IMG/VR virus record: IMGVR_UViG_3300031951_000380
Coordinates: 1-42,811 of that record
Length of the DNA: 42,811 bases
DNA from: a virus
Reading direction: 5' to 3' (one strand)
The stretch's first letter is position 1. Each line of letters starts with the position of its first letter. The notes beneath the pieces were generated by a model. It made no database searches and was not told the DNA's origin. It was given only the letters and a program-made list of their open reading frames with translations. The position numbers and the translations under genes are program-made. This document shows, in pieces, positions 22,122 through 40,333 of this stretch.

Positions 22122-23024
22122 TTACATCTTAGCTTGTTCTTTTCGCCACTCTATAAGTAAATCATCATCGAGTTCAACTAAGAAAGTTAGTAATAAACCC
22201 ATCTTAGCGTTCCATAATTTTTTACCTTTGCTCTTAGTACCTTCATTAGTATTATGCAACTGTACTGCATCGAACCACATAGGTTTACCTGGTTCCCAAT
22301 CTAAAATAGTTTCAGCACTTAAACCTTTTAATCTTTCATACGGAGTATTCATTACCTGCTCAAAAACAGATTTATCAAAAGGTGTTGCATTGTTTTCTTT
22401 AGGAACAGCAGTTCCTTGACCGTCATAGAATTGAAGTTCAGTGTAATCAGTGGTAATTTTATACACACTAGCAATATTAGGAACTAGACCGCCACCATTA
22501 TAAACATGCGCCCAGTCAATATGTCGCTGATCGAAGAATACAATTTGTCCACCATCTTCTTCATTAAGATGTGTTCCTATCCATAAAGGTAACAACCAAT
22601 TTTTCCAACAAGTGTATTTTCGTTGTTCGTGATTCAACGGGACTTTATCAAATGTAGTTGTAAAATCTTCAGGCCTTATACTATCATTATGTAATCCATA
22701 TTGTTGGGGAGTAATAAAATAATTACCGCCCACTTGTGGACTTTTTTCAGCAGGTATACCTAAACACTGATCGATTCTATCTTTAAATTTTAAATAAACT
22801 TCATGTAACTGTCCTGCTACTAACACAGTTCCGTTTTTATTCATTCTAACTTCTTTGCCTCCGGCAAATGCAAATTTCCAAATCCAATCTAATTCTTCTT
22901 TTGAAAACATTGCATCTTCAGATTTTGATGCTCGGCTAATATGCCTACGCATATTTTCAACTGCTATAGGATGATCCATTGGAAGCATATAATGCTCCCT
23001 TCTTAAACCTTTAGTGTACTCCAT
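22122..23024 (-). CDS. 2OG-Fe(II) oxygenase
   Basis: 300 aa; ATG 23024 with AGGAG about seven bases upstream. Fe(II) site H112-x-D114 in 'YGLHNDSIRP' and H257 in 'FDAVQLHNTNEG', with Lys residues after it in the right place for 2-oxoglutarate. 'VGGNYFITPQQYG' and 'LPLWIGTHLNEEDGGQIVFF' fit the double-stranded beta-helix of prolyl-hydroxylase-like enzymes. It hydroxylates an unknown substrate. It starts 14 bases inside the upstream radical SAM gene and is the last gene of the long leftward operon. Confidence 0.8.
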   Translation of the reverse strand: MEYTKGLRREHYMLPMDHPIAVENMRRHISRASKSEDAMFSKEELDWIWKFAFAGGKEVRMNKNGTVLVAGQLHEVYLKFKDRIDQCLGIPAEKSPQVGGNYFITPQQYGLHNDSIRPEDFTTTFDKVPLNHEQRKYTCWKNWLLPLWIGTHLNEEDGGQIVFFDQRHIDWAHVYNGGGLVPNIASVYKITTDYTELQFYDGQGTAVPKENNATPFDKSVFEQVMNTPYERLKGLSAETILDWEPGKPMWFDAVQLHNTNEGTKSKGKKLWNAKMGLLLTFLVELDDDLLIEWRKEQAKM

Positions 23025-24417
23025 AAAATACTCCTGTCATTTCTGGAAAAATTTCTTCAAAATTTAAACCTCTATGTGTATCAAGTGCTTTTAAATATTC
23101 TGTTGTTTCAGGTAATCGGTTAGTCCAATCTTCTGATTTCATAAATTTAATCATGCCGCGCAATCTTTTGATACCATACTCGGCGTTAAGCCACTGTTCT
23201 TTTGTTACCTTACCTTTATGCCATTCAGGAACACCTAGTTCCCAGTTTTCTATCCACCATGGTATAAATTCCTCATAGTGTTGTTCGCATTTGTCTTTAA
23301 ACCATTGAGGTAAGATCTTGACATTTAGGTGTGGTGGCCAATATACAAAATGATGATTAATTCCACCTGCACCAAATGGCCACATGTTAATCTTTTTATA
23401 GTTCTGTTGTAATTTCCATTTGATAAATTCTGGAATATAATAAATGTTCAATGCCTGTACTGCACATGCAACTGTAATTTCTACGTTGTCAGATGTTTGT
23501 GTATCTAGAATCTTAAATACTTCTTCTGTACGTTCCCATTTACTAGGATATCTAATATAGGCATTCTTTTCACCTATTGCATCAACACTATAATGGAATC
23601 GAACAAGTTTAAATTCTTTCCATAACTCAAATAAATCTTCTCGCCATTCGACTCCGTTACTGTTATAACGAAGTTCTAAATTCTTAGCATGTCCTTGCTT
23701 TATACATTCTTCTAAAATTTCGTAATGTTCTTCTATGATTAATGGCTCGCCACCTGCAAAATAAAGCTGTTGCATATTCGGGATTTGTTCATAGAATTGC
23801 TGCCAAAAAAGAGGATTATTTTTATGCCAATTAAAACTTGAGCCGTTAACACTGCCCTTGTTTTCCCATGCCATGGTCTTGCTTAATTCTCTATTCTGTA
23901 TAGTAGGATGGATCTTATTCCATTCTGGAATCCAATTACTACTATCATGCGGACTGCACATTACACAGGCTAATTGACATTTAGATCCGAATCTAAGATC
24001 AATATATTTTAAATTAGGAGGGACTTGTCCATCATCTGTTGTCTGTGCAATTAACTGATCGATGTCCACACGCTGAGCCCAATAGTTAGTTTCCCATTGT
24101 CTTTTGCTTACATGACCAGATTCTTCTTCTTTATAACATTTTGAACAGCTTTCTGGCTGTCCATTATCTAACATAATTTTTCTTACATTTTTCATGTAAG
24201 TGCTGTTCCAGCTTGATTGGAAATCGCTAACATTTAAGTTAGCTGGTTTACCTTCTTCTGTCTTCAACATTCCGACATGACCCCCGGTTTCAGCATTTGT
24301 AGATCCAACACCGCTAGCATTAGCAGTGCAACATACTCTCATACTACCGTCAGGTCTTGTACTTAAATGTATCCAAGGAAGAATACAAAATGTGTCTGAT
24401 GGATATTTTTGTGTCAT
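23011..24417 (-). CDS. Radical SAM protein with N-terminal twitch-like cluster domain
   Basis: 468 aa. The N-terminal region carries C11, a CC pair at 29-30 ('RPDGSMRVCC') and C91-x2-C94 ('CSKCYKEE'), the layout of an auxiliary cluster domain placed before the barrel ('FCILPWIHLST…'). The radical SAM motif is C147-x3-C151-x2-C154 in 'SKCQLACVMCSP'. 'YFAGGEPLIIEEHYEIL' gives the SAM motif and 'HYSVDAIGEKNAYIRYP' a core strand. The same C-x17-CC spacing occurs in the 25600 gene. Proteins of this N-twitch type are thought to modify peptides or small molecules by radical chemistry. No close ribosome site is visible. Confidence 0.85.
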   Translation of the reverse strand: MTQKYPSDTFCILPWIHLSTRPDGSMRVCCTANASGVGSTNAETGGHVGMLKTEEGKPANLNVSDFQSSWNSTYMKNVRKIMLDNGQPESCSKCYKEEESGHVSKRQWETNYWAQRVDIDQLIAQTTDDGQVPPNLKYIDLRFGSKCQLACVMCSPHDSSNWIPEWNKIHPTIQNRELSKTMAWENKGSVNGSSFNWHKNNPLFWQQFYEQIPNMQQLYFAGGEPLIIEEHYEILEECIKQGHAKNLELRYNSNGVEWREDLFELWKEFKLVRFHYSVDAIGEKNAYIRYPSKWERTEEVFKILDTQTSDNVEITVACAVQALNIYYIPEFIKWKLQQNYKKINMWPFGAGGINHHFVYWPPHLNVKILPQWFKDKCEQHYEEFIPWWIENWELGVPEWHKGKVTKEQWLNAEYGIKRLRGMIKFMKSEDWTNRLPETTEYLKALDTHRGLNFEEIFPEMTGVFYGVH

Positions 24418-24437
24418 GGAAATATTTAGTTATTATG

Positions 24438-25616
24438 TTAATTGGCAAATTGGTTACTGAACATATCGTTTTTTACACCACATGTTTTGGCACAGATTTG
24501 TAATTTCCCGTCAGCACAACTAGATTTGGTCCAACTATTAGGAACAATATCTTGAAAATATAATCCATTTACGATTGATTCTAAACTGTGATTTTTGGCA
24601 TTTAAATTTTCTTTTCCTACTTTATTAATTGCTTGCCAAATTTGGCCGCCTTCTGGTAACCAATACCAAACATACATTTGTCCGGCGGTCCAACAACAAG
24701 GTTGAACAATACCTTCAGCTGAAACATAAAGACTTTTTTCTTCTGCTACTTTACATTTTATTGGAACTTCGTCCCAATACTTCTCCATTGGTTTTTTCTT
24801 AGAGGGATCAATATGAAATTTTTGTTTACTTTGCACAATGAATGCTTCTTCTGCTTTACTTGGAACAAAAGAAATAGTATCTTCTAGTTTTTTATCAATT
24901 TTACTTAATTCTGCTAATGCTGTATTTTTATACTTGTCATCAGTAGGAGGTTTTAAAAGAGTAGTTGCTTGTCCTTTACGATTGGCCGCTTGATGAGTGT
25001 CTTTTGTTGCGCCCGAGGCATTGCTGAAAAATCTTGCTGATTTTTTAAATTGAAACTTTTCAAACCCCATTTTCCCACTTAATGCTCTGGCCTCGTCGAC
25101 CTGATGTTCGTTGTGTTCAAATACAATATAATCCCATCTTGCCCTGCCGCCAGCATTTATAAAAGCCTGAGCATTTTCCATAATTTTAGACCATATAGTA
25201 TTTTGTCTGTACAGATGATTAGTATCTTCTAATCCGTCTAAACTAAACACTACATTAGAATTTTTTCCCATAACTTGAGCAAGACGTGCCCACCAATCCG
25301 GTTTCTTCGCACTGCCGTTGGTGTGCATACTTAAATTCATTTTAGGATTAGATTGTCTAAAATATTCAAATATTTCTAAAGTATCTCTAGCAGCAATAGG
25401 ATCTCCATAATTGCCACACATATATAGTCTGTCTAATTGCTGTATAAACTCAACTGTAAATATTCTTTTAACATCATCAAGATGTAATTCTGTGTTTGGT
25501 AACTGAGGATTGTCTTCGCCACCGTTAATGTTTCTAGCACACATTGGGCAGGCTGCGTTACAGCTATCTGTAACTTCTAAGTGTACAGTTCTAATGTCGT
25601 TATAGTGGTATATCAT
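24438..25616 (-). CDS. Radical SAM/SPASM protein
   Basis: 392 aa from ATG 25616; an upstream TTG at 25625 is possible. The cluster motif C19-x3-C23-x2-C26 lies in 'DSCNAACPMCARN'. 'LSMHTNGSAKKPDWW' and 'VVFSLDGLEDTNHLYRQN' are barrel strands. The C-terminal part has a SPASM-like Cys set: 'KCKVAEEKSLYVSAEGIVQP', then CC, 'SCADGKLQICAKTCG'. SPASM enzymes bind one or two extra clusters and often modify peptide precursors. It is the middle of three consecutive radical SAM genes. It overlaps the 25600 gene by 17 bases and leaves a 20-base gap to the 23011 gene. Confidence 0.85.
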   Translation of the reverse strand: MIYHYNDIRTVHLEVTDSCNAACPMCARNINGGEDNPQLPNTELHLDDVKRIFTVEFIQQLDRLYMCGNYGDPIAARDTLEIFEYFRQSNPKMNLSMHTNGSAKKPDWWARLAQVMGKNSNVVFSLDGLEDTNHLYRQNTIWSKIMENAQAFINAGGRARWDYIVFEHNEHQVDEARALSGKMGFEKFQFKKSARFFSNASGATKDTHQAANRKGQATTLLKPPTDDKYKNTALAELSKIDKKLEDTISFVPSKAEEAFIVQSKQKFHIDPSKKKPMEKYWDEVPIKCKVAEEKSLYVSAEGIVQPCCWTAGQMYVWYWLPEGGQIWQAINKVGKENLNAKNHSLESIVNGLYFQDIVPNSWTKSSCADGKLQICAKTCGVKNDMFSNQFAN

Positions 25617-26874
25617 CTTGTTCAAATAGATAACTAAATTGTTTTAAATAATCTTTATTTACTGCTTCTTGAAAATACAGAAATTCTTCTTTTAACTTAT
25701 TATTTGCTCTTGTACTAAAATCGTGATTGTCTAATAAATCAAAAACATTTTGAAAGTCTGATTTATAATCTAAATTACAATCGTTAATAACATTAATTAA
25801 AGATTGTTTTGACTTCATAATATATTTTTTTGGAAGAACATTAATAGACATTGATCGTGGCCAAGTGAGTATAATTGGTTTAATTACACATCTTTTATCT
25901 CCAAGTGTTTTTTTCCACCAATAAATTAAATTATCTAAATATCTTACATTTAACCCGCTGACTACAGGTACTAAAGTAAGTTGGAAATTATCGTCTACAT
26001 GTTTGACCGCTAAGTTAACATTTTTTTCAATATTATTCCAATCTGAACTCGTTCTTAAATATTCATTCAATTCGCCATACGCATCAATACTTAAATTTAA
26101 TTCTACACTTTTAAAACTTTTAAGAAGATTTAATTGGTATTCGCTAAACTGAGACGTATTTGTATTACACCAGAATACAATGTTTGATGAGTAACCTTGC
26201 TCAACAAGAAAGGTTATAAAGTTCCAAAGAGGTTTAATAATAAAAGGTTCGCCGCCTGTAACATACAGATGCTCTAACTTATTTGCAATGTCTTTAAGCC
26301 CTTCCCAAAAAGTTTCACTTTTATCTAATTGTTCTTCTCCTGGATTATTAGACCACCATCGTTGATTTAACAACATTGTCTTTTTTTCTTCTCCCATTTT
26401 TTGCCCTATAGAAGTAATTAAAGAAGACCAATCTGTAGAACACATAATGCAAGCATAGTTACAAGTTTTAGCTACTTGCAAATTATAATAGCTGGGTACT
26501 AACTTTGTATCAAACTTTTCCCAATTAGAAAAATCTTCAGGTAATGAAGTATCATAATTTTGTTGAAAGACATTCCACTCTTCTAATCGTTTAGAAACTA
26601 ATCCTTGTTTTTCTTTGATCCAACAAGATTCACATTCTGAAAGTTTTTCTCCATTTATCATCCGTTTTCTAGATTCGTTGTAGTATGAATTATTAAAAAT
26701 TTCTATAATCTTTGTAGACTTACCGTCAACTTTTTCTATGTCAGGATTATACTTTGCTTCGCAACAAAATTTTATTTGTCCTTTAGTTTCTGTACTAAAA
26801 TGATTGAATAACAAAGGACACATTGTTGGATGTGTACCTGGAGAAAATCTATTTAAAAATTCTTCTCGATTCAT
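25600..26874 (-). CDS. Radical SAM protein with N-terminal twitch-like cluster domain
   Basis: 424 aa. Same architecture as the 23011 gene: N-terminal C19, CC at 37-38 ('KFCCEAKYN'), C81-x2-C84 ('CESCWIKEK'), then radical SAM motif C138-x3-C142-x2-C145 ('KTCNYACIMCST'). 'LYVTGGEPFIIKPLW' is the SAM motif and 'ELNLSIDAYGELNEYLRTS' a matching core strand. The two proteins probably arose by duplication and differ most in the loop between the CC and C-x2-C pairs (42 versus 60 residues). ATGA overlap with the small ORF upstream. Confidence 0.85.
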   Translation of the reverse strand: MNREEFLNRFSPGTHPTMCPLLFNHFSTETKGQIKFCCEAKYNPDIEKVDGKSTKIIEIFNNSYYNESRKRMINGEKLSECESCWIKEKQGLVSKRLEEWNVFQQNYDTSLPEDFSNWEKFDTKLVPSYYNLQVAKTCNYACIMCSTDWSSLITSIGQKMGEEKKTMLLNQRWWSNNPGEEQLDKSETFWEGLKDIANKLEHLYVTGGEPFIIKPLWNFITFLVEQGYSSNIVFWCNTNTSQFSEYQLNLLKSFKSVELNLSIDAYGELNEYLRTSSDWNNIEKNVNLAVKHVDDNFQLTLVPVVSGLNVRYLDNLIYWWKKTLGDKRCVIKPIILTWPRSMSINVLPKKYIMKSKQSLINVINDCNLDYKSDFQNVFDLLDNHDFSTRANNKLKEEFLYFQEAVNKDYLKQFSYLFEQDDIPL

Positions 26875-27242
26875 TGTGTTTCCTTATCCCAATACATTTT
26901 ATTATTTTTTTGATAAAAGTAATCTTTTTGCATTTCATATACATCATCGTAATCTACTCTATAATGAAATGCTTGACTTTTTAAGTATATTGCTATTCTA
27001 ACATATGCAGCAGGTTTCGACTCTGGTCTAGGTCCCGAAGTTTTATATTGGATGTGCCAAACTGCATTATCAGTTTGTATTTGACATCCACCTTTTTTAT
27101 TCCAAAATCCTAATATTTTTTCAAAATCTTCCACCTTTAACATGTAAGTGTTTACTGTGTTAGAGCTGACAAGAATACTTAAACTAACTTCGTTAGTTTC
27201 TTTAAACAAATAAATTTTTAATGGCTTGGTAAATTCTAACAT
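26871..27242 (-). CDS. Small hypothetical protein next to radical SAM genes, 123 aa
   Basis: ATG 27242 overlaps the upstream stop by one base (TAATG). Strand-rich start ('LKIYLFKETNEVSLSILVSSNTVNTYMLKVEDFEKIL'), a possible Gly-Cys pair ('KKGGCQIQ') and a Tyr/Lys-rich end ('RVDYDDVYEMQKDYFYQKNNKMYW'). No family is recognised. It is read together with the radical SAM gene after it (ATGA) and may be a partner or adaptor; a substrate role is only a hypothesis. Confidence 0.65.
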   Translation of the reverse strand: MLEFTKPLKIYLFKETNEVSLSILVSSNTVNTYMLKVEDFEKILGFWNKKGGCQIQTDNAVWHIQYKTSGPRPESKPAAYVRIAIYLKSQAFHYRVDYDDVYEMQKDYFYQKNNKMYWDKETQ

Positions 27243-27466
27243 TAATTATCCAAAACTAATTTAACATCTTTTCCTGGACCAACATGACTTGGTAATCCAC
27301 CATACTCGTTGATATACCATTCAATTACAGCCTTATACCAATTTTGGCTATCGTGATGAGCCTGCTGGTTAAATTTAAAAATATTATTGTTGGTAGCTTC
27401 TATAGCTACTAGAGCTCTTGCAGATTCTTTTTGAAGAGTTCTTAAATCAAAATCATTTATATCCAA
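27242..27466 (-). CDS. Small hypothetical protein, 74 aa (TTG start)
   Basis: No in-frame Met exists upstream of the core, so the start is TTG 27466 with a GAG just before it, overlapping the upstream stop by 14 bases. Helical: 'DLRTLQKESARALVAIEATNNNIFKFNQQAHHDSQNWYKAVIEWYINEYGG', then a Gly/Pro-containing tail ('LPSHVGPGKDVKLVLDN'). Unrecognised. Size and position beside SPASM-type genes make it one of two small proteins worth testing as a substrate or carrier (inference). Confidence 0.6.
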   Translation of the reverse strand: MDINDFDLRTLQKESARALVAIEATNNNIFKFNQQAHHDSQNWYKAVIEWYINEYGGLPSHVGPGKDVKLVLDN

Positions 27467-28562
27467 TTCTCAAAAATCTCCTATATTTTGGTAATTCTAA
27501 TTCACCTTCGTACAGACAATCTCTCATCGGAGTTTTGTCTGTAAAGTCAATCAAAGAACTAGAACAGTTTACGTGATCTTCAATGTCAAAATAATCGTTA
27601 GTTTGCAAAATCACTAGTGTCCCATCTGGTATACTTTCGTACCATTGATTAAAATTTCCTATATGTTCACAACTAGTATTAATTATCGTATTAGGAATAT
27701 CTACTAAAGTTACTGTTGTTCCGTCTGGCTTAAAAACATCGTAAGTTGTCTTATTATAATTTAAGCTTAAAATGTCAGCAATTCCAGCTTTAAATTTCCA
27801 CGAATCCATTTCCCACGGTTTATTAAATCTTTCTGCTATTTTAACACAACTAGGATCAATATCAAAACTTCTAACTTTGTTAATTTTTAAATTGCTTTCG
27901 AACATCATTACAGCAAGAGTACCGTACCAGCCTGCACATAAAAATACCGTTCCTAAATCTAAATCAAGTTTCTTTAGCTCATGTATTAACCACATTTTGC
28001 TAGCTAGTTGTCCTCGAGAAAAACAATCGTCATCATAATTTACTTGTTCAATATAAAAACTTTTAAATGCTGAAACAAACTGTGTTTCTAATTCGTTAGA
28101 TAAAATCTTCCAAAGACTCCAAACGTTGTCTTCTAGTACTAATTTTCTTAATTCTTCATTATTACAAATCCTAAAAATACTATATAAATTTTCTTCAACA
28201 ACTGCCTTTCTTAATTCTTCATTTTCTACTAATCTAAAAATACTGTGTAAATTTTTTTCAGTTACAGCTTTTCTTAATTCTTCAATTCCATCGTTTTCTA
28301 AATTAGGAATAACTCTAAAAATACTATACATATTTTCTTCAATGACTGCTTTTCTTATATCCTCAGTATATTCATTCTCATCAAAAAGTCTAAAAATACT
28401 GTGTAGATTTTTCTCCATTACAGCTTTTCTTAATTCTTCATTATCTAATAATCTAAAAATACTAGAAAAGTCTTTATCAGTATAAGACCTGCGTAAATCA
28501 GATATTCGTTCATTAGTATTGAATAACAGTTCAAATCTATCCAACAAATCTTTAATTTCCAT
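27453..28562 (-). CDS. SAM-dependent methyltransferase-like protein with N-terminal helical repeats
   Basis: 369 aa from ATG 28562 (TTG 28565 rejected). Residues ~23-155 hold about six copies of a 19-26-residue unit, e.g. 'ELRKAVMEKNLHSIFRL', 'IRKAVIEENMYSIFRV', 'ELRKAVVEENLYSIFRI'. They give two short helices per repeat and so probably a curved binding scaffold. Residues ~200-300 read as a class I methyltransferase: motif I 'VFLCAGWYGTLA' (206-217) and acidic 'FDIDPSCVKIAERF' (233-246, DID at 234-236). The enzyme would methylate a sugar, protein or nucleic acid; the repeats probably bind the partner. It overlaps both neighbours. Confidence 0.75.
   Translation of the reverse strand: MEIKDLLDRFELLFNTNERISDLRRSYTDKDFSSIFRLLDNEELRKAVMEKNLHSIFRLFDENEYTEDIRKAVIEENMYSIFRVIPNLENDGIEELRKAVTEKNLHSIFRLVENEELRKAVVEENLYSIFRICNNEELRKLVLEDNVWSLWKILSNELETQFVSAFKSFYIEQVNYDDDCFSRGQLASKMWLIHELKKLDLDLGTVFLCAGWYGTLAVMMFESNLKINKVRSFDIDPSCVKIAERFNKPWEMDSWKFKAGIADILSLNYNKTTYDVFKPDGTTVTLVDIPNTIINTSCEHIGNFNQWYESIPDGTLVILQTNDYFDIEDHVNCSSSLIDFTDKTPMRDCLYEGELELPKYRRFLRIGYK
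28098..28496 (-). repeat. Coding tandem repeat, about six degenerate units
   Basis: Encodes the repeat scaffold of the methyltransferase-like protein. Units of 57-78 bases share 'ctaaaaatact…' and 'tttcttaattcttca' stretches as read on the plus strand. Length differences are in whole codons, consistent with repeat gain and loss. Confidence 0.75.
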
Positions 28563-29232
28563 CAAATTTTTCCTTTAACCATATAAAGTCGTTTATTTTT
28601 TTTAAGGCATCAACGTTGCCTTTGTTTTCAGTTCCGTAGTTAGTACCCTCATGCGCACCGCGAATTGCATATTCTCCATAAGGCTTATCAGATCCTACTG
28701 ATCTCCAAACATTTAATCTTTCCTCAGTCTCATTAGATTTTTGCCTATCAATTACTTTACTACTTAATTTTACACACTCTCTAAATGCACTTTTCCATGT
28801 ATTAAACGGATCAGTATTAAAAACAGTAATATTACTAACCTGGGAAACTGGAACAAAATGTCTACTAATACTAGTTGTCATATCAGGTTTAGAAACATCC
28901 ATATTTAAAGTTAGTTTTCTTGGGAGAAGTTTGATTCCTCCGTATCCGTACACTAGTCCGTTAACTGGATTTAGACTTCTCCAGACGTGAACATGTTCTA
29001 GATACTGATTAGAAACATTATAATCAAAATTAAAATCTTCTAACACTTTTGCATCACCATCAACAACCCAAAACATCTTAGTTAAACATTTCTGTGCTGC
29101 GGCAATGTGTGCTTGATGTATTCCTTTAACTCCGTGTACACGTTTTGTCATTGGAAAGTTGTTTAGTAAATTTTTGTAATTTTCCTCAGCATTAGGTTCT
29201 TGGTAGCTGATAAACACAATGTCATACATCAT
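28552..29232 (-). CDS. GT-A-type glycosyltransferase-like protein
   Basis: 226 aa. It opens with 'YDIVFISYQEPNAEENYKNL' and carries a metal-binding DGD at residues 58-60 ('FWVVDGDAKV'), the DxD motif of GT-A enzymes, followed by 'VWRSLNPVNGLVYGYGGIKLLPR'. It is a paralogue of the next gene upstream (29229), sharing 'KRVHGVKG', 'NGLVYGYGGIK' and the 'FREGVK/FRECVK' region. Donor and acceptor are unknown; modification of virion protein or lipopolysaccharide-like glycans are candidates. TGATG-type overlap with the upstream gene. Confidence 0.8.
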   Translation of the reverse strand: MMYDIVFISYQEPNAEENYKNLLNNFPMTKRVHGVKGIHQAHIAAAQKCLTKMFWVVDGDAKVLEDFNFDYNVSNQYLEHVHVWRSLNPVNGLVYGYGGIKLLPRKLTLNMDVSKPDMTTSISRHFVPVSQVSNITVFNTDPFNTWKSAFRECVKLSSKVIDRQKSNETEERLNVWRSVGSDKPYGEYAIRGAHEGTNYGTENKGNVDALKKINDFIWLKEKFDGN

Positions 29233-30158
29233 CGTTTAACAACTCTAGCACCAGTAGTTACTCTAGAAGGGTTAGTAAACACTTCTTTAAAAAATTTACT
29301 CTGTATTGGATCAAGCGGACTACTCACAGGAATATCTAATTCGCTTTTAAGTTTTTCTCCTAAAATTTCTACTTCATCTTTCATACGATCTTCAGTCAGT
29401 GTTGCATTTTGATCTTCCCAAAATTGATTTAACCATTTAAAATCTCTAACATTTACATAATCCCAATCAGTACAATTTGTCATATAACATCCTTGTCTTG
29501 CCCCGAACATTGCCCAGTAACCGTTTTCTACATCTGATCCAACATTTAACCAGGCTAACAATCTATGATAATTCTTTTTATGTACACTGTGAATAAATTT
29601 TTTAGTATTTTCTAGTTTAACTCCTTGTGTCAAACTCATTTTGACACCTTCACGGAATCCGGCCCGCCATGCTTGCCAAGGTGTAGCATTATTATACACC
29701 CAACTCATGCATTCGTCTAATGTTATGTAATTAATATCCCAACAAAAATCAACTTGGCTTTGAGGATTATTAGCGTCAGCGTTTTCATGAGTTTTCATGT
29801 TCAACACGAACTCTCTGGGCCAACTTTTGATCCCACCGTTTCCATACATTAATCCGTTTACTACATTTAATGCACACCAAGACACTACACTTCGATTATA
29901 TAACTCTTCTGAATCAATTTCAATTGTTTGTTCAAAAAATTTAGGATTTACTATGTTATCTCCATCAATTATAACGATTCTTTCGGTGTCTGCTAATTTT
30001 GCACAGGCCTTGTGCGCTGAATCAGATCCTTCAACACCGTGTACACGCTTTGCCCACGGGCATTTAGTTAGCAAATCTGCATAATTTTTTTCAGCGTTTG
30101 GCTCGTCATAGCTCAAATATATCACATCGCAATCAATAATGTTAAAAGTTTTAGTCAT
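29229..30158 (-). CDS. GT-A-type glycosyltransferase-like protein, larger paralogue
   Basis: 309 aa. 'DVIYLSYDEPNAEKNYADLL' and DGD at 65-67 ('IVIIDGDNIVNP') as in its neighbour, plus 'LNVVNGLMYGNGGIKSWPREFVLNM' and 'PWQAWRAGFREGVKMSL'. A ~70-residue C-terminal helical extension ('MKDEVEILGEKLKSELDIPV') is absent from the shorter copy and may serve dimerisation or partner binding. Four-base overlaps on both sides. Confidence 0.8.
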   Translation of the reverse strand: MTKTFNIIDCDVIYLSYDEPNAEKNYADLLTKCPWAKRVHGVEGSDSAHKACAKLADTERIVIIDGDNIVNPKFFEQTIEIDSEELYNRSVVSWCALNVVNGLMYGNGGIKSWPREFVLNMKTHENADANNPQSQVDFCWDINYITLDECMSWVYNNATPWQAWRAGFREGVKMSLTQGVKLENTKKFIHSVHKKNYHRLLAWLNVGSDVENGYWAMFGARQGCYMTNCTDWDYVNVRDFKWLNQFWEDQNATLTEDRMKDEVEILGEKLKSELDIPVSSPLDPIQSKFFKEVFTNPSRVTTGARVVKR

Positions 30159-30706
30159 AATAATCCATATGTTTTAAAATACTGTTCTGTTACCATTGAA
30201 AACTTTGTTAAATCGTTTTCGTTTTCGTAAGCATACGGAACTTCGATAAAGTCATTTTCAACTAAATCATATAATTGAAATCTTATTGTTCTAATTAAAA
30301 AGTGTATGTCTTGTTTTTTACAAATATAGAAATTTATATTCCTATTTTGATCTCTTAATATTCTTTTTTTAACTGTAGGCGAAAGTCTAAATCTCCAACA
30401 ATTGGACATTCTTTGAATCAAGCACTCTTCACGTGAATCAATCATTGGTCTAATAATGTGAATATAACTGTGTACTGTAGGAGGTATAGATTTTTCAACT
30501 TCTTTAATTTCATAACTACCGTCATCGGCAAAAGTTATCATACAATTACCAATTTGAAATCCACTACTTGAAAATTTTTGCTGTTCGTCAAAGTCTAAAG
30601 CTATAAATTTTTTAGATTCTTCTAATTCAGGACTTATAGATTCTATAACTCCGCTATCATTAAAATATAAAAATATGTCTGTTGGATTATATTTTTTCTT
30701 CGGCAT
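30155..30706 (-). CDS. Hypothetical protein, 183 aa
   Basis: Begins at ATG 30706, inside the end of the upstream glycosyltransferase gene. Strand-rich N-terminus ('IFLYFNDSGVIESISPELEESKKFIALDFDEQQKF'), centre 'NCMITFADDGSYEIKEVEK', then a basic patch ('CLIQRMSNCWRFRLSPTVKKRILRDQNRNINFYIC'). It resembles a phage accessory structural protein, but no family is recognised. Embedded between glycosyltransferases, so a shared pathway is likely. Confidence 0.65.
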   Translation of the reverse strand: MPKKKYNPTDIFLYFNDSGVIESISPELEESKKFIALDFDEQQKFSSSGFQIGNCMITFADDGSYEIKEVEKSIPPTVHSYIHIIRPMIDSREECLIQRMSNCWRFRLSPTVKKRILRDQNRNINFYICKKQDIHFLIRTIRFQLYDLVENDFIEVPYAYENENDLTKFSMVTEQYFKTYGLL

Positions 30707-31541
30707 TTTTCTTTAATTTATTTTCAAGTTTTTGAATAATCTCATGTGTTAAAAACTCATCTTCTACATAATGGAATACACCGTTTTGCAAAATATTTCC
30801 TATTTTTAATTCGCATTGATCAGTAAACACACTACTTACAGTATCATACCAAGAAAAGGGCAACAATGACCAATCTTGTAATGCTGGTTTCATATGTGTA
30901 AAGGTTGGGATTGACAGAGTTTTTAGTGTACATTGTTCCTCAACATCTAAAATTTTTAAAATCAATGCCGACGAAACATCCATACTAGCCCAAGTTTGTT
31001 GAGTGCTAGGACAAAATTTTTGATAAAAGGTCTGATAATTTTTTGTTAAAATTTCTAACCATTTATAAAATTCAAAAGAACTTTCATTTTTTTTGAAATA
31101 ATGTAATCCAAAATATGTATTTGGTAATTTATTTTCTTCAAAAGATTGTCTATAATAATTAGAAGTAATTTTATTACCTCGATAATTAAACACGTTGCTA
31201 GATAACACTACATCTTTATTTTTTAAAACATTCCACCAATGATCATTAGAATTCAACAATAGCATATCGCTGTCATAAACTAAATTTTCTTTAAACGGTG
31301 TTACATAAATTATTTTCCATCTATTTTCAATTTTCCAAACACTGTCTTTAGCTTCATCATTCCACGGAATTTCGACTATATAATCAAATACTTTTTTATA
31401 GTGCTCGGGTACTTTGTCATTAGTAATAACACAAACTTGATTTATTTTATTATGTAATTTTATACTTAATGCAAGTGCGTATGCCTGTCTAAGATAGTTT
31501 ACATCAGAATTTTGAGCAAAAATAACATGACCTTTAGACAT
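30687..31541 (-). CDS. GT-A/GT8-like glycosyltransferase
   Basis: 284 aa. 'GHVIFAQNSDVNYLRQAYALALSIKLH' is the typical start of GT8-like nucleotide-diphospho-sugar transferases. 'NLVYDSDMLLLNSNDHWW' (residues 87-104) holds the DxD metal motif (D90, D92). 'CPSTQQTWASMDVSSALIL' and 'TFTHMKPALQDW' fit the acceptor side. Its neighbour (31534) is a related protein. It starts eight bases inside the previous gene and overlaps the next by 20. Acceptor unknown. Confidence 0.75.
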   Translation of the reverse strand: MSKGHVIFAQNSDVNYLRQAYALALSIKLHNKINQVCVITNDKVPEHYKKVFDYIVEIPWNDEAKDSVWKIENRWKIIYVTPFKENLVYDSDMLLLNSNDHWWNVLKNKDVVLSSNVFNYRGNKITSNYYRQSFEENKLPNTYFGLHYFKKNESSFEFYKWLEILTKNYQTFYQKFCPSTQQTWASMDVSSALILKILDVEEQCTLKTLSIPTFTHMKPALQDWSLLPFSWYDTVSSVFTDQCELKIGNILQNGVFHYVEDEFLTHEIIQKLENKLKKNAEEKI

Positions 31542-32367
31542 ATAATTCCTTATTGTCCATTAATCGTAGTAAACTAAGTTTATTCATAACATGCACATCC
31601 ATACCTTCAGTCTTGGACACAATGTATTCATTAGCAGACGAGGGATGTTCTAATAAAAATGTCATTTTATTATCTTCAAATGATAAGATATGATCTTTAT
31701 CTAATACATATGCTATTTTGGCTGGAAATATTTCTATAAAATTTTCTTTAGAAAACCCATTAAACATATGTATCGCAATACTATACGCGATGTCATTTCG
31801 ATAATTTGAACTTAATGTTTGATACATCATCACATAATAGCTCCAATTATCTTTAATATATTCAACTAAATTAAAAAATAATTGATTCTTTTCAGTTTTT
31901 CTAAAATAAAAAACAGTGGCCCAATAAAAATCAATGCTATATTCACTAATGTGATTAAATTCTTTGATATTTCTCCAACTAGCTAGATCAAAACTATCTT
32001 TAAAAATTAAAAAATCGCTAGTCTTACCCCAGCAACAATTTAAAAAATCAGAGTTAATTATATAATCGCAGTCAATTACTAAAGTTTCATCGTAAGGACT
32101 TAGGTCATAACAGGTGTGTCTAGAAAGATTATTCCACTCATCGACAAAGTTTTTTAAAGACCCGTCATGAAATAATCTTTTTTGACCCAATTCTTTCGCT
32201 AAAAGAATAACATTGTCAAATAAATTTTCTTTATCAACTTGTACATCAGTAACTAATGTAACAGGTACCTTTAAAAATTGTGCGACTCTACTAGCAGCCA
32301 GCTTGGCTAATTTAACATAATCAATAGTTTCGTTATTGAAGGCAAAGATTAAGACACCCTTAGTCAT
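31534..32367 (-). CDS. GT-A-like glycosyltransferase, paralogue of neighbour
   Basis: 277 aa. Similar start 'GVLIFAFNNETIDYVKLAKLAASRVAQFL' and a DxD at 99-101 ('LVIDCDYIINSDFL'), followed by 'SIDFYWATVFYFRKTEKNQLFFNLVEYIK'. It differs more at the C-terminus than in the nucleotide-binding half, suggesting a changed acceptor. Very AT-rich coding compared with the fibre genes. Overlaps both neighbours (four and eight bases). Confidence 0.75.
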   Translation of the reverse strand: MTKGVLIFAFNNETIDYVKLAKLAASRVAQFLKVPVTLVTDVQVDKENLFDNVILLAKELGQKRLFHDGSLKNFVDEWNNLSRHTCYDLSPYDETLVIDCDYIINSDFLNCCWGKTSDFLIFKDSFDLASWRNIKEFNHISEYSIDFYWATVFYFRKTEKNQLFFNLVEYIKDNWSYYVMMYQTLSSNYRNDIAYSIAIHMFNGFSKENFIEIFPAKIAYVLDKDHILSFEDNKMTFLLEHPSSANEYIVSKTEGMDVHVMNKLSLLRLMDNKELYV

Positions 32368-32714
32368 AATTGAACTAAACTCTCAACCTTTCTAGAAAGT
32401 TTTAATTGTTGATATTTGGTTTGATAACTGTTAACTGCCATAAAGTACTGATTTAGAATATCTTCTAAAAACACATTAAGATTTTTGATCTTGATGGGAA
32501 GGTCGTTATCATCTATAAGCACCACATCTGTATCTTGTTTCAAGTCTATAAGAGTTTTTACAAAAGTTATTAGATCTTTTGATACTTGGAACGTGTGCCC
32601 TTGGAAAAAATAAACTAGATTTTGTTTGAATTCTTGCTTTAAAATTGACTTTTGATTAGCTAAAGTTGTCATATAATTGGCAACTTCATACGCTTTTTGA
32701 ACTTTGTCGTCCAT
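32364..32714 (-). CDS. Small conserved-looking phage protein, 116 aa
   Basis: I chose ATG 32714 because GGAG is six bases upstream; a longer frame starts inside the terminator. Helical: 'DKVQKAYEVANYMTTLANQKSILKQEFKQNLVYF', then 'HTFQVSKDLITFVKTLIDLKQDTDVVLIDDNDLPIKI' and a Tyr/Lys-rich coil end. The type is familiar from T4-like marine phages but no function is known. First gene after the intrinsic terminator, with only about 10 bases between the U tract and its start, so it depends on read-through or a promoter hidden in the hairpin. Confidence 0.75.
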   Translation of the reverse strand: MDDKVQKAYEVANYMTTLANQKSILKQEFKQNLVYFFQGHTFQVSKDLITFVKTLIDLKQDTDVVLIDDNDLPIKIKNLNVFLEDILNQYFMAVNSYQTKYQQLKLSRKVESLVQL

Positions 32715-32723
32715 TTTTACTCC

Positions 32724-32769
32724 AAAAAAATAACTATACTGCCTAAGCAAGTATAGTTATCTTTTTTTT
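32724..32769. terminator. Bidirectional intrinsic terminator
   Basis: An 11-bp perfect stem (32730-32740 with 32750-32760) flanked by seven A (32724-32730) and by a T run (32762-32769). Read leftward it ends with seven U, so it should terminate fibre-gene mRNA; read rightward it also has a U tract. A second 7-bp hairpin, CTTAATC/GATTAAG at 32774-32796, lies over the fibre gene's stop. Confidence 0.85.
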
Positions 32770-32791: not shown

Positions 32792-33847
32792 TTAAGTCAT
32801 TGTGGATGTAACTGTTGGAGCGACAATTGTAACACTGTTAGTTCCGGAAGTTTGAATAGTTCCAACCGGTCTTAATAAAGCACAGTTACTAGCAAATGTT
32901 CCGTCAACTTGTTCATCGTTAGGGCCACCGCCGCCAACTGAAGCATCATTATAAGTGATGATGAATGTCATTCCCGAGTTGTCTGCTGTTTTTTGAGCTG
33001 TCATAGTAACAGAAGCAGTATTGTACGGAGTGTTAGTCGCACCAGTTACAACTGAACCAGCAATAGTAAAGAATGTCTGTGGGCTAGTTGTTAATGTTCT
33101 ATAATTAACACTAGTAGTAACTGTACCGCTATACAAACCAGCAGTAGAAACAGTAACAGTATCTCCTCTAAACTCAATTGTTCCAAAATTAAGCAATGCT
33201 GTCCAGTAGGTGTTTTTATTGTTAACTGATCCACCGGTACGACTTGCGCTAAATCTAAAACTTCCGCCTGCATTAAAGAAATGTCTTAGATTAGCAGCGG
33301 AGTTAGCTGTTGTTGACCCTTGATTACCGCTTGCTGGATTAGCAGTACTGCCAGTAACAGTAATAGTATGAACTCTAGTACCATTAAAAGTAGCAGTAGT
33401 TGAATTTGAACCAGCCGCATTTGCTAATGTTGTTAGCGAAAACTGAGCTGGGATCGTTACTGTGTTGTTGATAACTGAAACTATTAAATTAGCCTCAGCT
33501 GGTCTAACTAGTTTGTCTGTTGCAATTTGTCCGGACATGTTGGTATATTGTACTCTAAGCGCATCAGAAATAACAGATGTACTTGTTGGAACAATAAGTT
33601 GATTATAGGAACCAGCTGGACTACCAGTTGCTCCGGAGCCGTTAGTAATACCCACTCCCTGGTGATTTCTGATTCTTATCAAATCGTTTCGTAGATTTGT
33701 AAACTGACTCAATCTAATAGTTGATCCTGCCACAACTTGAGAAGAAGCTACTGATTGTCCATAACCAGAATTCCCGCTACCGGTGCCTAAAATAGATGCA
33801 ACTGAAGATTGAATAGCATTATATTGTGCTGCTGTAATTTTTGCCAT
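32792..33847 (-). CDS. Virion structural protein (tail-fibre cluster)
   Basis: 351 aa. Helical start 'AKITAAQYNAIQSSVASILGTGSGNSGYGQ' and 'TIRLSQFTNLRNDLIRIRNHQGVG', then a Ser/Thr/Asn/Gly-rich beta body with repeated 'VTVSTAGLYSGTVTTSVNYRT'-like strands, as in shaft or tip proteins of phage fibres. No enzymatic motif. Last gene before the terminator. A 12-base gap separates it from the upstream fibre gene, and AAGGAATT provides a ribosome site. Confidence 0.8.
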   Translation of the reverse strand: MAKITAAQYNAIQSSVASILGTGSGNSGYGQSVASSQVVAGSTIRLSQFTNLRNDLIRIRNHQGVGITNGSGATGSPAGSYNQLIVPTSTSVISDALRVQYTNMSGQIATDKLVRPAEANLIVSVINNTVTIPAQFSLTTLANAAGSNSTTATFNGTRVHTITVTGSTANPASGNQGSTTANSAANLRHFFNAGGSFRFSASRTGGSVNNKNTYWTALLNFGTIEFRGDTVTVSTAGLYSGTVTTSVNYRTLTTSPQTFFTIAGSVVTGATNTPYNTASVTMTAQKTADNSGMTFIITYNDASVGGGGPNDEQVDGTFASNCALLRPVGTIQTSGTNSVTIVAPTVTSTMT

Positions 33848-33859
33848 TTTTTCAATTCC

Positions 33860-35353
33860 TTATAAAATAACTGCTTCGACTAATTTGACACCAGAATCAT
33901 TGTTTGATTCTAGGGCAATAGCGAAAATATTAAAAATTCCCTTGCTAATAGTGTTACCTACCGCAACTCTTTCGGCACAACCATCGTTGGCCGCAATTAA
34001 TCGGTCACCTTTGTTTACTGGACCAACCACTTTTACTGGCACTCTTCCTTTTAAAGCAATGTATGTGCCGCCTTCTAGTGTACTGTTCATCATATAAGCA
34101 GGGTTTCCACTTACTACACCTAGTGCTCTGTCACCACTTTGTGATGCAGTCACTTCAGCGTCACCGCCTACAGTAACTACGGTTCCTACAATGTAGTCAC
34201 TGTCAGCTAGATATTTTTCTGCTAAGTCAGCAAATTGTGCTTGTAAAGCAATACCTGTAAAATATTCGCCTTTGATTGAGCCTGGAGGTATAGTAGTACC
34301 ATCTATTACTTCTGAAGTATCGGTTCTACAAACAATCGTTCCGGAAGTGCCGGTAATATCAGCTGCTGCATAACTGCCGCCGGCTTCTCTTAAAGTATTA
34401 GATTGTGTAGCAGTACCATTAAATTGTGTAGCATATACTACAGCATACTTTGCTCCAGGGTCACCAATATCGTACGTATTTCCAACATCGGGCATAATTT
34501 TAGTTGGAAATATCTGCATAAGTTTTGCATTACCTACACCTAATGTTAAACTTGAGCCAGTAGCTCTTACTGTAGGATCCGACCCTTGCATTAAACATTC
34601 AAGTTTAGGAGTCGAAGTTCCTACAGTAAAACCAGAATTAGAAAATGATGCTACGCTAGTAAACGCTGCATTTACACCGGATTTAGTAACATAATCTGAA
34701 GATGGGATTCCACCTAACTGATCAGCATCAGATGCTACTCCGTGATACTTATATCCTGCATCGGCACTTAGCGTGAGTCCTGTTTTGATTTCAGTAAAGT
34801 ATTCTAATTCAGTAGGTTTATCTGGTTCCGATAATACAAAATCGGCCGAAGAACTTACTGTAAATACTCCAATATCTTCTACGATACCTGCAATAATATA
34901 TCTTAGAGTATTGTCATCTGCTGTAACTTCAAGTGCCTTCATTTGAATAGTGCCTTGTCCGGCAATACCCTGTGGCCCAATTAGAACTTTTTCTGTTCCG
35001 TTCCAAACATATAACAAGTCGTTGTCTGTATCAAACCAAAAATCGCCTGCTACTAATCCCGATGGTTCTTGACCACTAGCAATAGAGCCGCCAGCGACTT
35101 TAAATCGTGTACCGTCAAAGTAATTAAGTTTTTTAGTGCTAGAATTATACCAAAGTTGTCCGGCAATTTTTCGAGGTGGCTCAGTTCCGCCTGCAAAATT
35201 TTCTAGCAAATGTACAAAGTTTTCATTCTGCACTTCTCCGTATCCGGCATAGTTTTTTCCAACTAACTTGATATCTAAAGTGCTATCAACAGTGCCATCT
35301 TCTACGATTATTGGATCGAAAGCGCCACTGTATCTATCAATTGTGTACGGCAT
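33860..35353 (-). CDS. Tail-fibre protein with shared N-terminal module (copy 1)
   Basis: 497 aa. Residues ~25-95 carry the module shared by three fibre genes: 'LVGKNYAGYGEVQNENFVHL', 'LENFAGGTEPPRKIAGQLWY', then 'YFDGTRFKVAGG'. The middle is fibre-like beta with 'SSLTLGVGNAKLMQIFPTK'. The C-terminus 'QFADLAEKYLADSDYIVGTV' and 'RVPVKVVGPVNKGDRLIAA' is a small beta barrel of virion proteins. GGGG precedes the ATG, and a late promoter box sits 22 bases upstream. It probably binds the host surface or links to the baseplate. Confidence 0.82.
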   Translation of the reverse strand: MPYTIDRYSGAFDPIIVEDGTVDSTLDIKLVGKNYAGYGEVQNENFVHLLENFAGGTEPPRKIAGQLWYNSSTKKLNYFDGTRFKVAGGSIASGQEPSGLVAGDFWFDTDNDLLYVWNGTEKVLIGPQGIAGQGTIQMKALEVTADDNTLRYIIAGIVEDIGVFTVSSSADFVLSEPDKPTELEYFTEIKTGLTLSADAGYKYHGVASDADQLGGIPSSDYVTKSGVNAAFTSVASFSNSGFTVGTSTPKLECLMQGSDPTVRATGSSLTLGVGNAKLMQIFPTKIMPDVGNTYDIGDPGAKYAVVYATQFNGTATQSNTLREAGGSYAAADITGTSGTIVCRTDTSEVIDGTTIPPGSIKGEYFTGIALQAQFADLAEKYLADSDYIVGTVVTVGGDAEVTASQSGDRALGVVSGNPAYMMNSTLEGGTYIALKGRVPVKVVGPVNKGDRLIAANDGCAERVAVGNTISKGIFNIFAIALESNNDSGVKLVEAVIL

Positions 35354-35374
35354 TAATTACCCCTTTATTCAAAA

Positions 35375-35382
35375 TATTTATC
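35375..35382 (-). promoter_or_regulatory. T4-type late promoter (GATAAATA)
   Basis: GATAAATA on the minus strand, 22 bases before the fibre gene start at 35353, in the short gap between two fibre genes. Same octamer as at 10760 and 40278. Confidence 0.65.
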
Positions 35383-35383
35383 A

Positions 35384-37303
35384 TCAAACGCTACTTGTTA
35401 GGTTAGTTACAAAGGACCAAGCATGTTTTTCGGCAGTTCCTACGACTGAAAATGATCCTTGATCTGTGCCCAGATTACTGTAGGTAAATGAGCTTGGGCC
35501 AGTTACTGTAATACTTGTTAAGGCACTAAATGTAGTGTCTGTTGAACAAACAATATCAATTACATTTCCAGTGCTGTATCCATGAGGACTACCAACTGTA
35601 ATTGTTGCTAAATTTGTCGCTCTAGCAGCAGTCGATAATGCAACTGTTGCAGAAGCAGTAACTTGAAATTTCTTTAAAAATCTAGATACAGGATTAATAT
35701 TATCATCTAAAGTGCAGTGTACTCTAGCTACAGCACCGACTCGAAATTCATCTTCGGGATAAATGTCATGACAGACTAATGCAATACTGTCATCAGTTGG
35801 TGCCGGTAAATCTGTAATATCTAATGAAAACCCTACAGGTCTAGTATCAACATAAGATCTGTTTGCTGCATCAGTTTGACTTACTGGAGCTGTTACATTC
35901 TTAATTAAACTAGAATTAACATCAACTGATCCTGATCCATTTGGACTAATAATAATATTGCCGTTTGTATCTGTAGAACTTACAGTATTTCCGTTAATGT
36001 TTATATTATCAATGTTAAGTTGTGCTAGAGTTCCTAAAGAAGTTAAACTTGAACTAACTACAGATGGGCCTAATGTGGTAGAACTTAAAATTAAAGAATT
36101 GTCAATTCTGTATTCTGTTCCGGTAGGAATATTAATAGTTTGAGATAGTTCCCAAGCATCATTTGACAAGTTGTATAATATAGTTTTGTCTGTTGCTCCG
36201 ACTAAAATTATTCCGCCACCGTCGGCACTTAAATCAGTCTGAGCAGTACTATCGCCCAATGCAGGACGATTCAATTCAATATTTTTATCTTCTGAAGTGA
36301 TAACTGTAGTATTCATTGTAACAGTTTCACCTTCGACAATTAAGTCGCCTGTAATTCTTGCATCACCGGTTACATCAAGATTATATTCTGGGTATTCGTT
36401 AAAGATACCAACTCGACCTTCTAATGTTTCAATTTTTAAAGCAGATATCGGGCCACCGCCCCGTAATGCTTTAATACTAAACCCTTGATTGATCGCATTA
36501 CTAGAGATTTCAAATATTGTATCATCTACATATATTTGGCTTTCGTCTGCTTCTCCTAACTTTAAAGGAGTAGAGTTTTGAATAGTTATTGTACCTATTG
36601 TCCCAGTGTCTTGATAGGTTGTCATAAAATTAGACACGGATCTAACTGTACCATTTTCATCAACTAAATTTTCTGCTGCTGAAGCAGTTACATAAAACTT
36701 AGGAGAAATAGTTCCAGGATTGAACCCTTTTCTAATTGTATTTGAAATACCGTTAGTGGAAGGATATCCAGGTATAATTTTCTTTGGTGTGAATTCTGAA
36801 GTGTCTTTACTAAAAATTCCTAATAATATTTGTGCGCACCAGAGATAAACTAAAGTTCTACTTGTTTCAGTTGTATCTAAAATTGTTTCAACTGTAAATC
36901 CTGAAAGACCTTGACTACTTTTATATACTGGTCCAGCTAATACTAAATCTGACCCATCATAAAAATACATTTGATTATCAGTTGGGTTAATCCAAATGTC
37001 GCCTTGAGCTAGTGCAGGTTGTGTAGAACTGACTGTTGAACCGCCAGCTGCTTTAAATCTAGAACCATCATATACTTTTAATTTGTTTACGCTAGTATCG
37101 AACCACAACTGTCCTGTTATTTTGTTCGATGGTTCAGTAGTAGATGCAAAATTTTCTAATAGTTTTAAAAAATTCTCATTGATATATTCACCGTAGCCGG
37201 AAACATTTTTACCAATTAAGGTAAGATCTGTAGTTTGATCAATGGTTCCATCTATAATTTGAGTAATCTCTACATTTTCTGTGTTATTAATTTTATAGGT
37301 CAT
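35384..37303 (-). CDS. Tail-fibre protein with shared N-terminal module (copy 2)
   Basis: 639 aa. Module: 'LIGKNVSGYGEYINENFLKL', 'LENFASTTEPSNKITGQLWF', 'VYDGSRFKAAGG'. The remainder is fibre beta with chaperone-like 'VGIFNEYPEYNLDVTGDARITGDLIVEG' (a pattern seen in phage fibre triple-beta shafts) and 'LIKNVTAPVSQTDAANRSYVDTRPV' typical of trimeric fibre proteins. The C-terminus is Thr/Ser-rich. It is four-base overlapped with the 37300 gene. Host-recognition role inferred. Confidence 0.82.
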   Translation of the reverse strand: MTYKINNTENVEITQIIDGTIDQTTDLTLIGKNVSGYGEYINENFLKLLENFASTTEPSNKITGQLWFDTSVNKLKVYDGSRFKAAGGSTVSSTQPALAQGDIWINPTDNQMYFYDGSDLVLAGPVYKSSQGLSGFTVETILDTTETSRTLVYLWCAQILLGIFSKDTSEFTPKKIIPGYPSTNGISNTIRKGFNPGTISPKFYVTASAAENLVDENGTVRSVSNFMTTYQDTGTIGTITIQNSTPLKLGEADESQIYVDDTIFEISSNAINQGFSIKALRGGGPISALKIETLEGRVGIFNEYPEYNLDVTGDARITGDLIVEGETVTMNTTVITSEDKNIELNRPALGDSTAQTDLSADGGGIILVGATDKTILYNLSNDAWELSQTINIPTGTEYRIDNSLILSSTTLGPSVVSSSLTSLGTLAQLNIDNININGNTVSSTDTNGNIIISPNGSGSVDVNSSLIKNVTAPVSQTDAANRSYVDTRPVGFSLDITDLPAPTDDSIALVCHDIYPEDEFRVGAVARVHCTLDDNINPVSRFLKKFQVTASATVALSTAARATNLATITVGSPHGYSTGNVIDIVCSTDTTFSALTSITVTGPSSFTYSNLGTDQGSFSVVGTAEKHAWSFVTNLTSSV

Positions 37304-39648: not shown

Positions 39649-39649
39649 A

Positions 39650-40258
39650 TTACACCTCACTTAAACCAGTTAGACTTTGAATTCTAACGGTGTAGTCTAC
39701 TTGAATTACCCTATTCAGTGATTTCTGTACGGGATGGAATATTACGTGAGTTAACAATCTTCCAGTACCTGTTGCACTGTACGCTCTAAGACCAAGTTCA
39801 TCAAAAACGAAATCTCCGTTATTATTCGACGTATTATCAAATGCTTCTTGTCCGGCTGGCTCACCGTAATCTAAAAAACAAGTTACAAAAACATCTGTAT
39901 AATTAGTTCCTGTAACATGTCTAGTCTCGACCCTATTTCTCGTAGGGTCTATATTTGTTCTTTGTCTATCGTTAACGACTTTAGAGAATTTTTCATTATA
40001 CAAAGTTGCATTAGTGCCTGTTGAATTTGGTGTCAAATATGTAATAATTCCGGTAGGATCAATTGTAGTTCCCCCGTTACCAAATACCATTTCTTGTATA
40101 AATCCTTGCCCTTCGTTCGCAATACTTTCAGCAAGGGCAATGCTAATGTTTTCATAATGAATAGCATTTCTTTTATTCACAACGATTTCGCCCGTGTCTG
40201 GGTGCCATATTTTTATATGGCCTTCTATATGTAATCCTGAATGATCTTTACCTTGCAT
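39650..40258 (-). CDS. Virion/tail-fibre-associated protein, 202 aa
   Basis: ATG 40258. 'HIEGHIKIWHPDTGEIVVNKRNAIHYENISIALAESIANEG' starts it, then 'IQEMVFGNGGTTIDPTGIITYL' and 'FVFDELGLRAYS', with a C-terminus 'VIQVDYTVRIQSL'. This is a beta-rich fold often found beside T4-like fibre genes. A late promoter box lies about 20 bases upstream and GCGAG serves as a weak ribosome site. Probably a tail or baseplate accessory protein. Confidence 0.75.
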   Translation of the reverse strand: MQGKDHSGLHIEGHIKIWHPDTGEIVVNKRNAIHYENISIALAESIANEGQGFIQEMVFGNGGTTIDPTGIITYLTPNSTGTNATLYNEKFSKVVNDRQRTNIDPTRNRVETRHVTGTNYTDVFVTCFLDYGEPAGQEAFDNTSNNNGDFVFDELGLRAYSATGTGRLLTHVIFHPVQKSLNRVIQVDYTVRIQSLTGLSEV

Positions 40259-40277
40259 AATAATCTCGCTAATAAAT

Positions 40278-40285
40278 TATTTATC
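40278..40285 (-). promoter_or_regulatory. T4-type late promoter (GATAAATA)
   Basis: GATAAATA on the minus strand, 20 bases before the 40258 start. A 6-bp A/T-only inverted repeat (AATAAT/ATTATT with an 11-base loop) overlaps the box and ends at the start codon, a weaker echo of the 10765 hairpin. Confidence 0.65.
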
Positions 40286-40333
40286 AACACGCATAATACA
40301 CTATTTTAATAACATATCTGTTATTTTTTAAGA

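Follow-up and report, generated by a model that had tools for sequence, protein, structure and literature searches.

Islands of radical S-adenosylmethionine (SAM) genes have been reported from several phages. The Campylobacter phages CP220 and CPt10 carry 11-12 radical SAM proteins, the authors of CP220 having counted 11 (PMC2853527); the host-recognition clusters of pelagimyophages carry radical SAM cassettes and glycosyltransferases (PMC7029224); and TARA_ERS488813_N000010, a 183-kb T4-like marine virus, has 12 radical SAM genes together with other iron-sulfur (Fe-S) genes (PMC5332604). Because all of these carry radical SAM genes, phage radical SAM islands are already known. Here we describe a cassette in a 42,811-base IMG/VR virus record, IMGVR_UViG_3300031951_000380 (the window, by which we mean the whole stretch analyzed), in which genes for glycosyltransferase-like (GT), methyltransferase-like (MT) and radical SAM proteins stand with two small proteins, S74 and S123. 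What appears to be new is a core of defined composition, two protein families (S74 and S123), and radical SAM counts above those reported before.

The conserved core, directly visible in gene order, co-occurrence, a gene fusion, conserved motifs and T4-like capsid genes, runs GT-GT-MT-(S74)-SPASM-TwA, where SPASM is a SPASM-like and TwA an N-terminal-twitch radical SAM enzyme, S74 is the variably present member, and the whole lies beside the tail-fiber genes of T4-like (gp23-bearing) phages. Each scan took the 80 loci nearest its query; the fractions given here describe relatives of the window, the loci are not fully independent, and distinct proteins were counted for S74 but not for TwA and SPASM. 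Anchored on S74, distinct loci have the MT directly upstream in 70/73 cases, SPASM downstream in 56/57 and TwA downstream in 42/45. At loci anchored on SPASM, the MT precedes the enzyme in 63/64 and TwA follows it in 47/52, and the S74- and SPASM-anchored counts agree on the same core; from TwA, SPASM is found upstream in 60/63. Genes resembling the window's GT309 occur in all 61 of 61 S74 loci, and in locus L052 GT309, GT226 and the MT are fused into a single protein of 848 residues. Near-identical copies of the cassette occur in other IMG/VR records, for example the 180,861-base G002, and a T4-type gp23 major capsid gene is present in 10/14 related records, G002 included, by which the cassette-bearing viruses are T4-like aquatic phages.

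None of TwA, S74 and S123 has a significant match in INPHARED (50,697 phage records). CP220 resembles it in having radical SAM genes, an amidinotransferase and two proteins of nucleotide-diphospho-sugar-transferase fold beside baseplate genes, but its likeness to the cassette proteins is confined to the radical SAM core (best SPASM-profile matches 49-64 bits), and the stretch examined holds no TwA, S74, S123, MT or GT-profile match. The pelagimyophages, including Pelagibacter phage Mosig, are likewise T4-like aquatic phages with a tail-fiber-linked region of GTs, carbamoyltransferase, Asp/Arg hydroxylase and radical SAM genes, where Mosig has a relative of the MT (E=2.6e-25) and a SPASM-profile match near its tail fibers; S74, S123 and TwA, however, were not found in the Mosig stretch examined. 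Against the 12 radical SAM genes of TARA_ERS488813_N000010, which we compared by its published description, the present records reach up to 25 matches. Loci of about 20 kb mostly contain 4-8 open reading frames with radical SAM motifs (maximum 13), and whole records contain 5-25 Pfam radical SAM matches, except for two short records that gave none. The richest are 25 in 184 kb (G010, the record of locus L174) and 22 in 117 kb (G017, the record of L098).

In the window the genes follow one another on a constant, minus strand from tail-fiber and virion genes through P128, P277, GT284, P183, GT309, GT226, MT370, S74, S123, TwB (a second twitch enzyme), SPASM and TwA to an oxygenase-like gene (Table 1). 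A preliminary description had reported a radical SAM set with two small open reading frames at 23011-27466, and its frames and their order are as it claimed, all on the minus strand. It also proposed a single transcript. Because the genes mostly overlap (by 1-26 bp between most cassette genes, and by 14 bp between S74 and MT370 upstream of it), are separated at the SPASM-TwA exception within the studied region by a gap of just 20 bp, and include no strong terminator, a single transcript appears plausible for this co-directional run, in which the two small frames do lie upstream of the radical SAM genes; promoter and terminator scans gave no excess over shuffled sequences.

Table 1. Features of the cassette and its surroundings in the window, and a second genomic setting of S74 in other loci
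Feature	Position	Strand	Basis
TwA, N-terminal-twitch radical SAM protein, conserved core member	23011..24417	-	NF033640, orthologues
SPASM-like radical SAM protein, conserved core member	24438..25625	-	Pfam, invariant Cys
TwB, second N-terminal-twitch radical SAM protein, lineage-specific	25600..26874	-	NF033640
S123, small protein, predicted PUR/Whirly-like fold	26871..27242	-	AlphaFold2 model
S74, small protein, predicted three-helix, new family, TTG start	27242..27466	-	
MT370, ELRKAV...SIFRL repeats and class-I-methyltransferase-like domain	27453..28565	-	motif, Mosig annotation
GT226, glycosyltransferase-like, GT-A type, GT309 paralogue	28552..29232	-	
GT309, glycosyltransferase-like	29229..30158	-	weak PF13641 match
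P183, GT8-like GT284, P277 and P128, conserved flank between tail fibers and core	30155..32750	-	
Putative 2-oxoglutarate/Fe oxygenase-like gene, downstream of and overlapping TwA	22122..23024	-	by eye
Tail-fiber/virion structural genes bordering the cassette	32792..42805	-	PHROG
ClpX-IF3-bS21-(S74)-Hsp20-ClpS operon	L340:6121-9378, L348:4571-8748, L350:4967-8700, L352:4999-8144		

The two twitch paralogues recognized in the preliminary description are borne out by family NF033640 (N_Twi_rSAM), whose curated hidden Markov model has a cut-off of 170 bits: TwA scores 430 and TwB 272, and the two are 26% identical. The family name covers domain make-up alone and gives neither reaction nor substrate. 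In TwA the motif C-x17-CC...C-x2-C corresponds to C11, C29, C30, C91 and C94, and the core CxxxCxxC to C147, C151 and C154; all are invariant in 20 TwA orthologues (59-88% identical), and the patterns are therefore not due to chance. TwA has at least 596 viral relatives. TwB, found in 9 viral loci, has just two distinct close orthologues; it is confined to the window's lineage, and the tandem twitch pair is therefore a lineage feature outside the conserved core. The enzyme between them, described earlier as SPASM-type, does have a radical SAM core (PF04055, 35.9 bits against a cut-off of 29.5), with invariant C22, C26 and C29. Its PF13186 SPASM score of 17.5 bits lies below the Pfam cut-off of 21.5, and the SPASM label is therefore approximate. 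Five C-terminal cysteines (C291, C310, C311, C378 and C382, in the pattern C-x18-CC...C-x3-C) are likewise invariant, as against seven in canonical SPASM domains, and we regard the region, judged by its cysteine pattern, as SPASM- or twitch-like. The protein has at least 590 viral relatives, and every NCBIfam maturase score falls far below its cut-off (best TIGR04317, 56 against 380).

GT226 and GT309 are 36% identical and have a common invariant DxD; GT309 has a weak match to PF13641 (E=0.017). MT370 has no Pfam match above the cut-off, and its reading as a methyltransferase comes from a motif and from the Mosig annotation. Its N-terminus (window 28100-28540) carries repeats of about 18-22 residues, ELRKAVxExNLxSIFRL, and a DNA tandem repeat of period 63 lies within that region at 28129-28284. 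Copy number differs among orthologues, many of which show no repeat by a strict pattern, and we rejected the repeats as candidate repeated peptide cores on these grounds.

Around the core the gene content varies. Carbamoyltransferase, UDP-glucose dehydrogenase, Trp halogenase, AMP-binding, Asp/Arg hydroxylase and TauD-family genes each occur in a minority of loci. Amidinotransferase-like neighbors were recognized by eye only, and the one tested gave no Pfam match. The same phage region in L158 (3257-4753) carries a flavin-dependent tryptophan-halogenase gene (PF04820, 241 bits).

We tentatively favor, at a confidence a little short of even, the reading of this locus as a cassette for decoration, situated among the host-recognition genes of T4-like aquatic phages and acting by glycan or fiber modification. 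The two GT-like proteins and the MT-like protein would act with SPASM and TwA, and with additional radical SAM and tailoring enzymes that differ between loci, to build or modify a sugar-based or fiber-attached group that would end on virion fibers or on the surface of the infected cell, while S74 and S123 would be accessory proteins. We infer a glycan or fiber substrate, radical C-H chemistry upon it, and consequences for host recognition or for the exclusion of superinfecting phages. The reading is favored because MT, TwA, SPASM and GT309-like genes are near-constant and the GT-GT-MT unit is fused in L052; because the cassette borders tail-fiber genes in viruses of which 10/14 records carry gp23; and because CP220, at its baseplate genes, and the pelagimyophage host-recognition clusters pair radical SAM genes with genes of sugar-transferase type, and Mosig has its MT relative and SPASM-profile match near tail fibers. 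A sugar-based decoration of fiber or surface also fits better than a peptide natural product, because a constant set of GT, MT and radical SAM genes is combined with variable tailoring genes and a tail-fiber position. Several observations weigh on the other side. The GTs and the MT were assigned from motifs, weak matches and the annotation of one cultured relative, and profile searches of the PDB found no characterized relatives of the MT and GTs, nor any close one for the cassette enzymes, the best matches being NifB for SPASM (5.6e-6) and SkfB for TwA (0.007). SPASM and twitch radical SAM enzymes, SkfB among them, often act on peptides, and a protein acceptor such as a fiber is possible.

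The tail-fiber position can indeed be read differently: the radical SAM enzymes may modify a phage structural protein of the tail fiber or baseplate rather than a glycan, with the GTs and MT marking that same protein further. The cassette stands beside fiber genes, its radical SAM enzymes have auxiliary clusters, homologues of Asp/Arg beta-hydroxylases occur in the window and its relatives, and the very high conservation of TwA suggests a conserved acceptor. Since no fiber motif has been shown to co-vary with the enzymes, and the carbamoyltransferase and UDP-glucose dehydrogenase neighbors point to sugars, we consider this unlikely. The islands could also serve auxiliary metabolism, supplying a cofactor or small molecule that aids infection instead of decorating virion or surface, as Fe-S genes have been interpreted elsewhere (PMC5332604); some relatives carry an IscU scaffold, a ferredoxin-reductase-like protein or S-adenosylhomocysteine hydrolase, and halogenase, AMP-binding and weakly FeeM-like genes occur in islands. 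IscU, however, is present in 6/14 records only and not in G002, which belongs to the window's lineage, and many loci sit between tail fibers and a variable region; this explanation seems to us quite unlikely.

S74 and S123 are, judged by conservation and by family searches, genuine new families: neither matches any NCBIfam or Pfam family, PqqD-like RiPP (ribosomally synthesized and post-translationally modified peptide) recognition elements included, and their predicted folds are helical and PUR-like, respectively. S74 (74 amino acids, at least 410 viral relatives, single copy per record where present) is conserved along its whole length, with a mean column identity of 72% and a median ratio of nonsynonymous to synonymous substitution rates (dN/dS) of 0.15, indicating purifying selection. 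Its model is compact and helical (predicted local distance difference test, pLDDT, 88), and structural comparison gave no convincing relative; PDB profile matches with designed repeat proteins and antibody chains span just 16-25 residues and were rejected as spurious. Bacterial S74 sequences are limited to two contigs of metagenome-assembled genomes, each of which bears this cassette and is probably of viral origin.

Because SPASM-type enzymes often modify peptides, the preliminary description had suggested that one of the small proteins could be their substrate, and that the small frames should co-occur with the radical SAM genes. For S74 they do: all 57 of 57 distinct proteins with at least 3 kb of downstream sequence, a closely related set, are encoded no more than 3 kb from a radical SAM gene. 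S123, by contrast, also occurs away from radical SAM genes. Viewed from the enzymes the association is looser. S74 is missing from 21/64 SPASM loci (present in 43/64), where the MT often abuts SPASM, while MT and TwA stay; of 12 such records searched whole, which may be fragments, 8 lack S74 and 4 carry it elsewhere. S74 also occurs in a second setting, the ClpX-IF3-bS21-(S74)-Hsp20-ClpS operon of aquatic viruses (L340, L348, L350 and L352; family assignments were tested in L350 and matched by eye in the others), overlapping bS21 in L350 and L352; L344 has a similar but looser arrangement. After S74 in L350 there is a gene of an S-adenosylmethionine-lyase family (PF23780), with a similar open reading frame in L340 and L348.

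This second setting raises a real, if somewhat unlikely, possibility concerning S74 alone and compatible with a decoration cassette, namely that it is a translation or proteostasis helper, such as an adaptor for Clp or the ribosome, and owes its place in the cassette to co-expression alone. It adjoins or overlaps bS21 and lies near IF3, ClpX, Hsp20 and ClpS in the four loci, but its fixed neighbors in most relatives are the MT and SPASM. Decidedly improbable, in our estimation, is the fuller proposal that the GT-GT-MT unit, dedicated SPASM-like and N-twitch enzymes and as many as two dozen other radical SAM enzymes per virus form an undescribed modification system, in which host recognition would be determined by radical chemistry on tail-fiber proteins or a phage-made glycan and S74 would be an adaptor of a new kind.

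S123 has a higher dN/dS (0.43) and is much rarer, occurring in 6/64 SPASM loci. Its AlphaFold2 model (pLDDT 85, below 50 at residues 117-123) resembles human PURA repeats I-II (8chu_A; Z 9.7 over 106 residues, 3.2 A) and the Whirly fold (Z 8.4). A PDB sequence search gave no match, the PUR/Whirly likeness being one of the fold of the model only, by which S123 is probably PUR/Whirly-like and probably binds nucleic acid. We had considered it as a PqqD-like recognition element and rejected this in favor of the modeled fold, the lack of a PqqD match not being itself evidence. Some homologues, for which no radical SAM gene was found within 10 kb, lie near IscU-like scaffold and ferredoxin-reductase-like genes (L179:4588-5007 and 7386-8165) or beside an S-adenosylhomocysteine hydrolase gene (L016:10554-11855); most of their records carry radical SAM genes elsewhere, which these neighbors possibly supply. 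The C-terminal tail QKNNKMYWD (QK[NH]NxM[YH]WD) is nearly invariant, with low model confidence.

That either protein is a RiPP-like precursor modified by the SPASM and twitch enzymes is thus highly improbable. The small frames adjoin the radical SAM genes, S74 is single-copy, and the tail of S123 is nearly invariant and possibly flexible; the tail is kept, however, also at loci lacking a radical SAM gene in the vicinity, and no pattern of leader and core (variable, for S74) was found in either alignment. The substrate idea is unsupported because S74 is absent from a third of the SPASM loci and has a second operon, and because S123 is rare and PUR/Whirly-like; neither shows the behavior expected of an obligate substrate for SPASM or TwA. 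A literature search for RiPP precursors paired with radical SAM enzymes of phages brought up nothing pertinent. Overall, the earlier interpretation is partly supported.

Of the tail-fiber and virion genes bordering the cassette, three match PHROG tail and virion structural families, the outermost weakly. GT284 was assigned as GT8-like by eye, its sole Pfam match being PF14950 (E=0.01). The oxygenase-like gene, also assigned by eye and with no Pfam match, has homologues in 12 S74 loci. A further radical SAM gene lies at 16,884-18,044, and the other half of the window contains a thymidylate synthase together with GTP-cyclohydrolase- and QueE-like genes (5615-6379 and 7728-8585), which suggest a 7-deazaguanine pathway, perhaps for DNA modification.

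Radical SAM enzymes are oxygen-sensitive and costly, and yet many are encoded by these uncultured T4-like phages, for the most part close to the genes for host recognition. Ever since Campylobacter phage genomes were described in 2010 it has been asked what such islands produce, and the fixed GT-MT-SPASM-TwA core, with S74 and S123, provides a concrete target for answering it.

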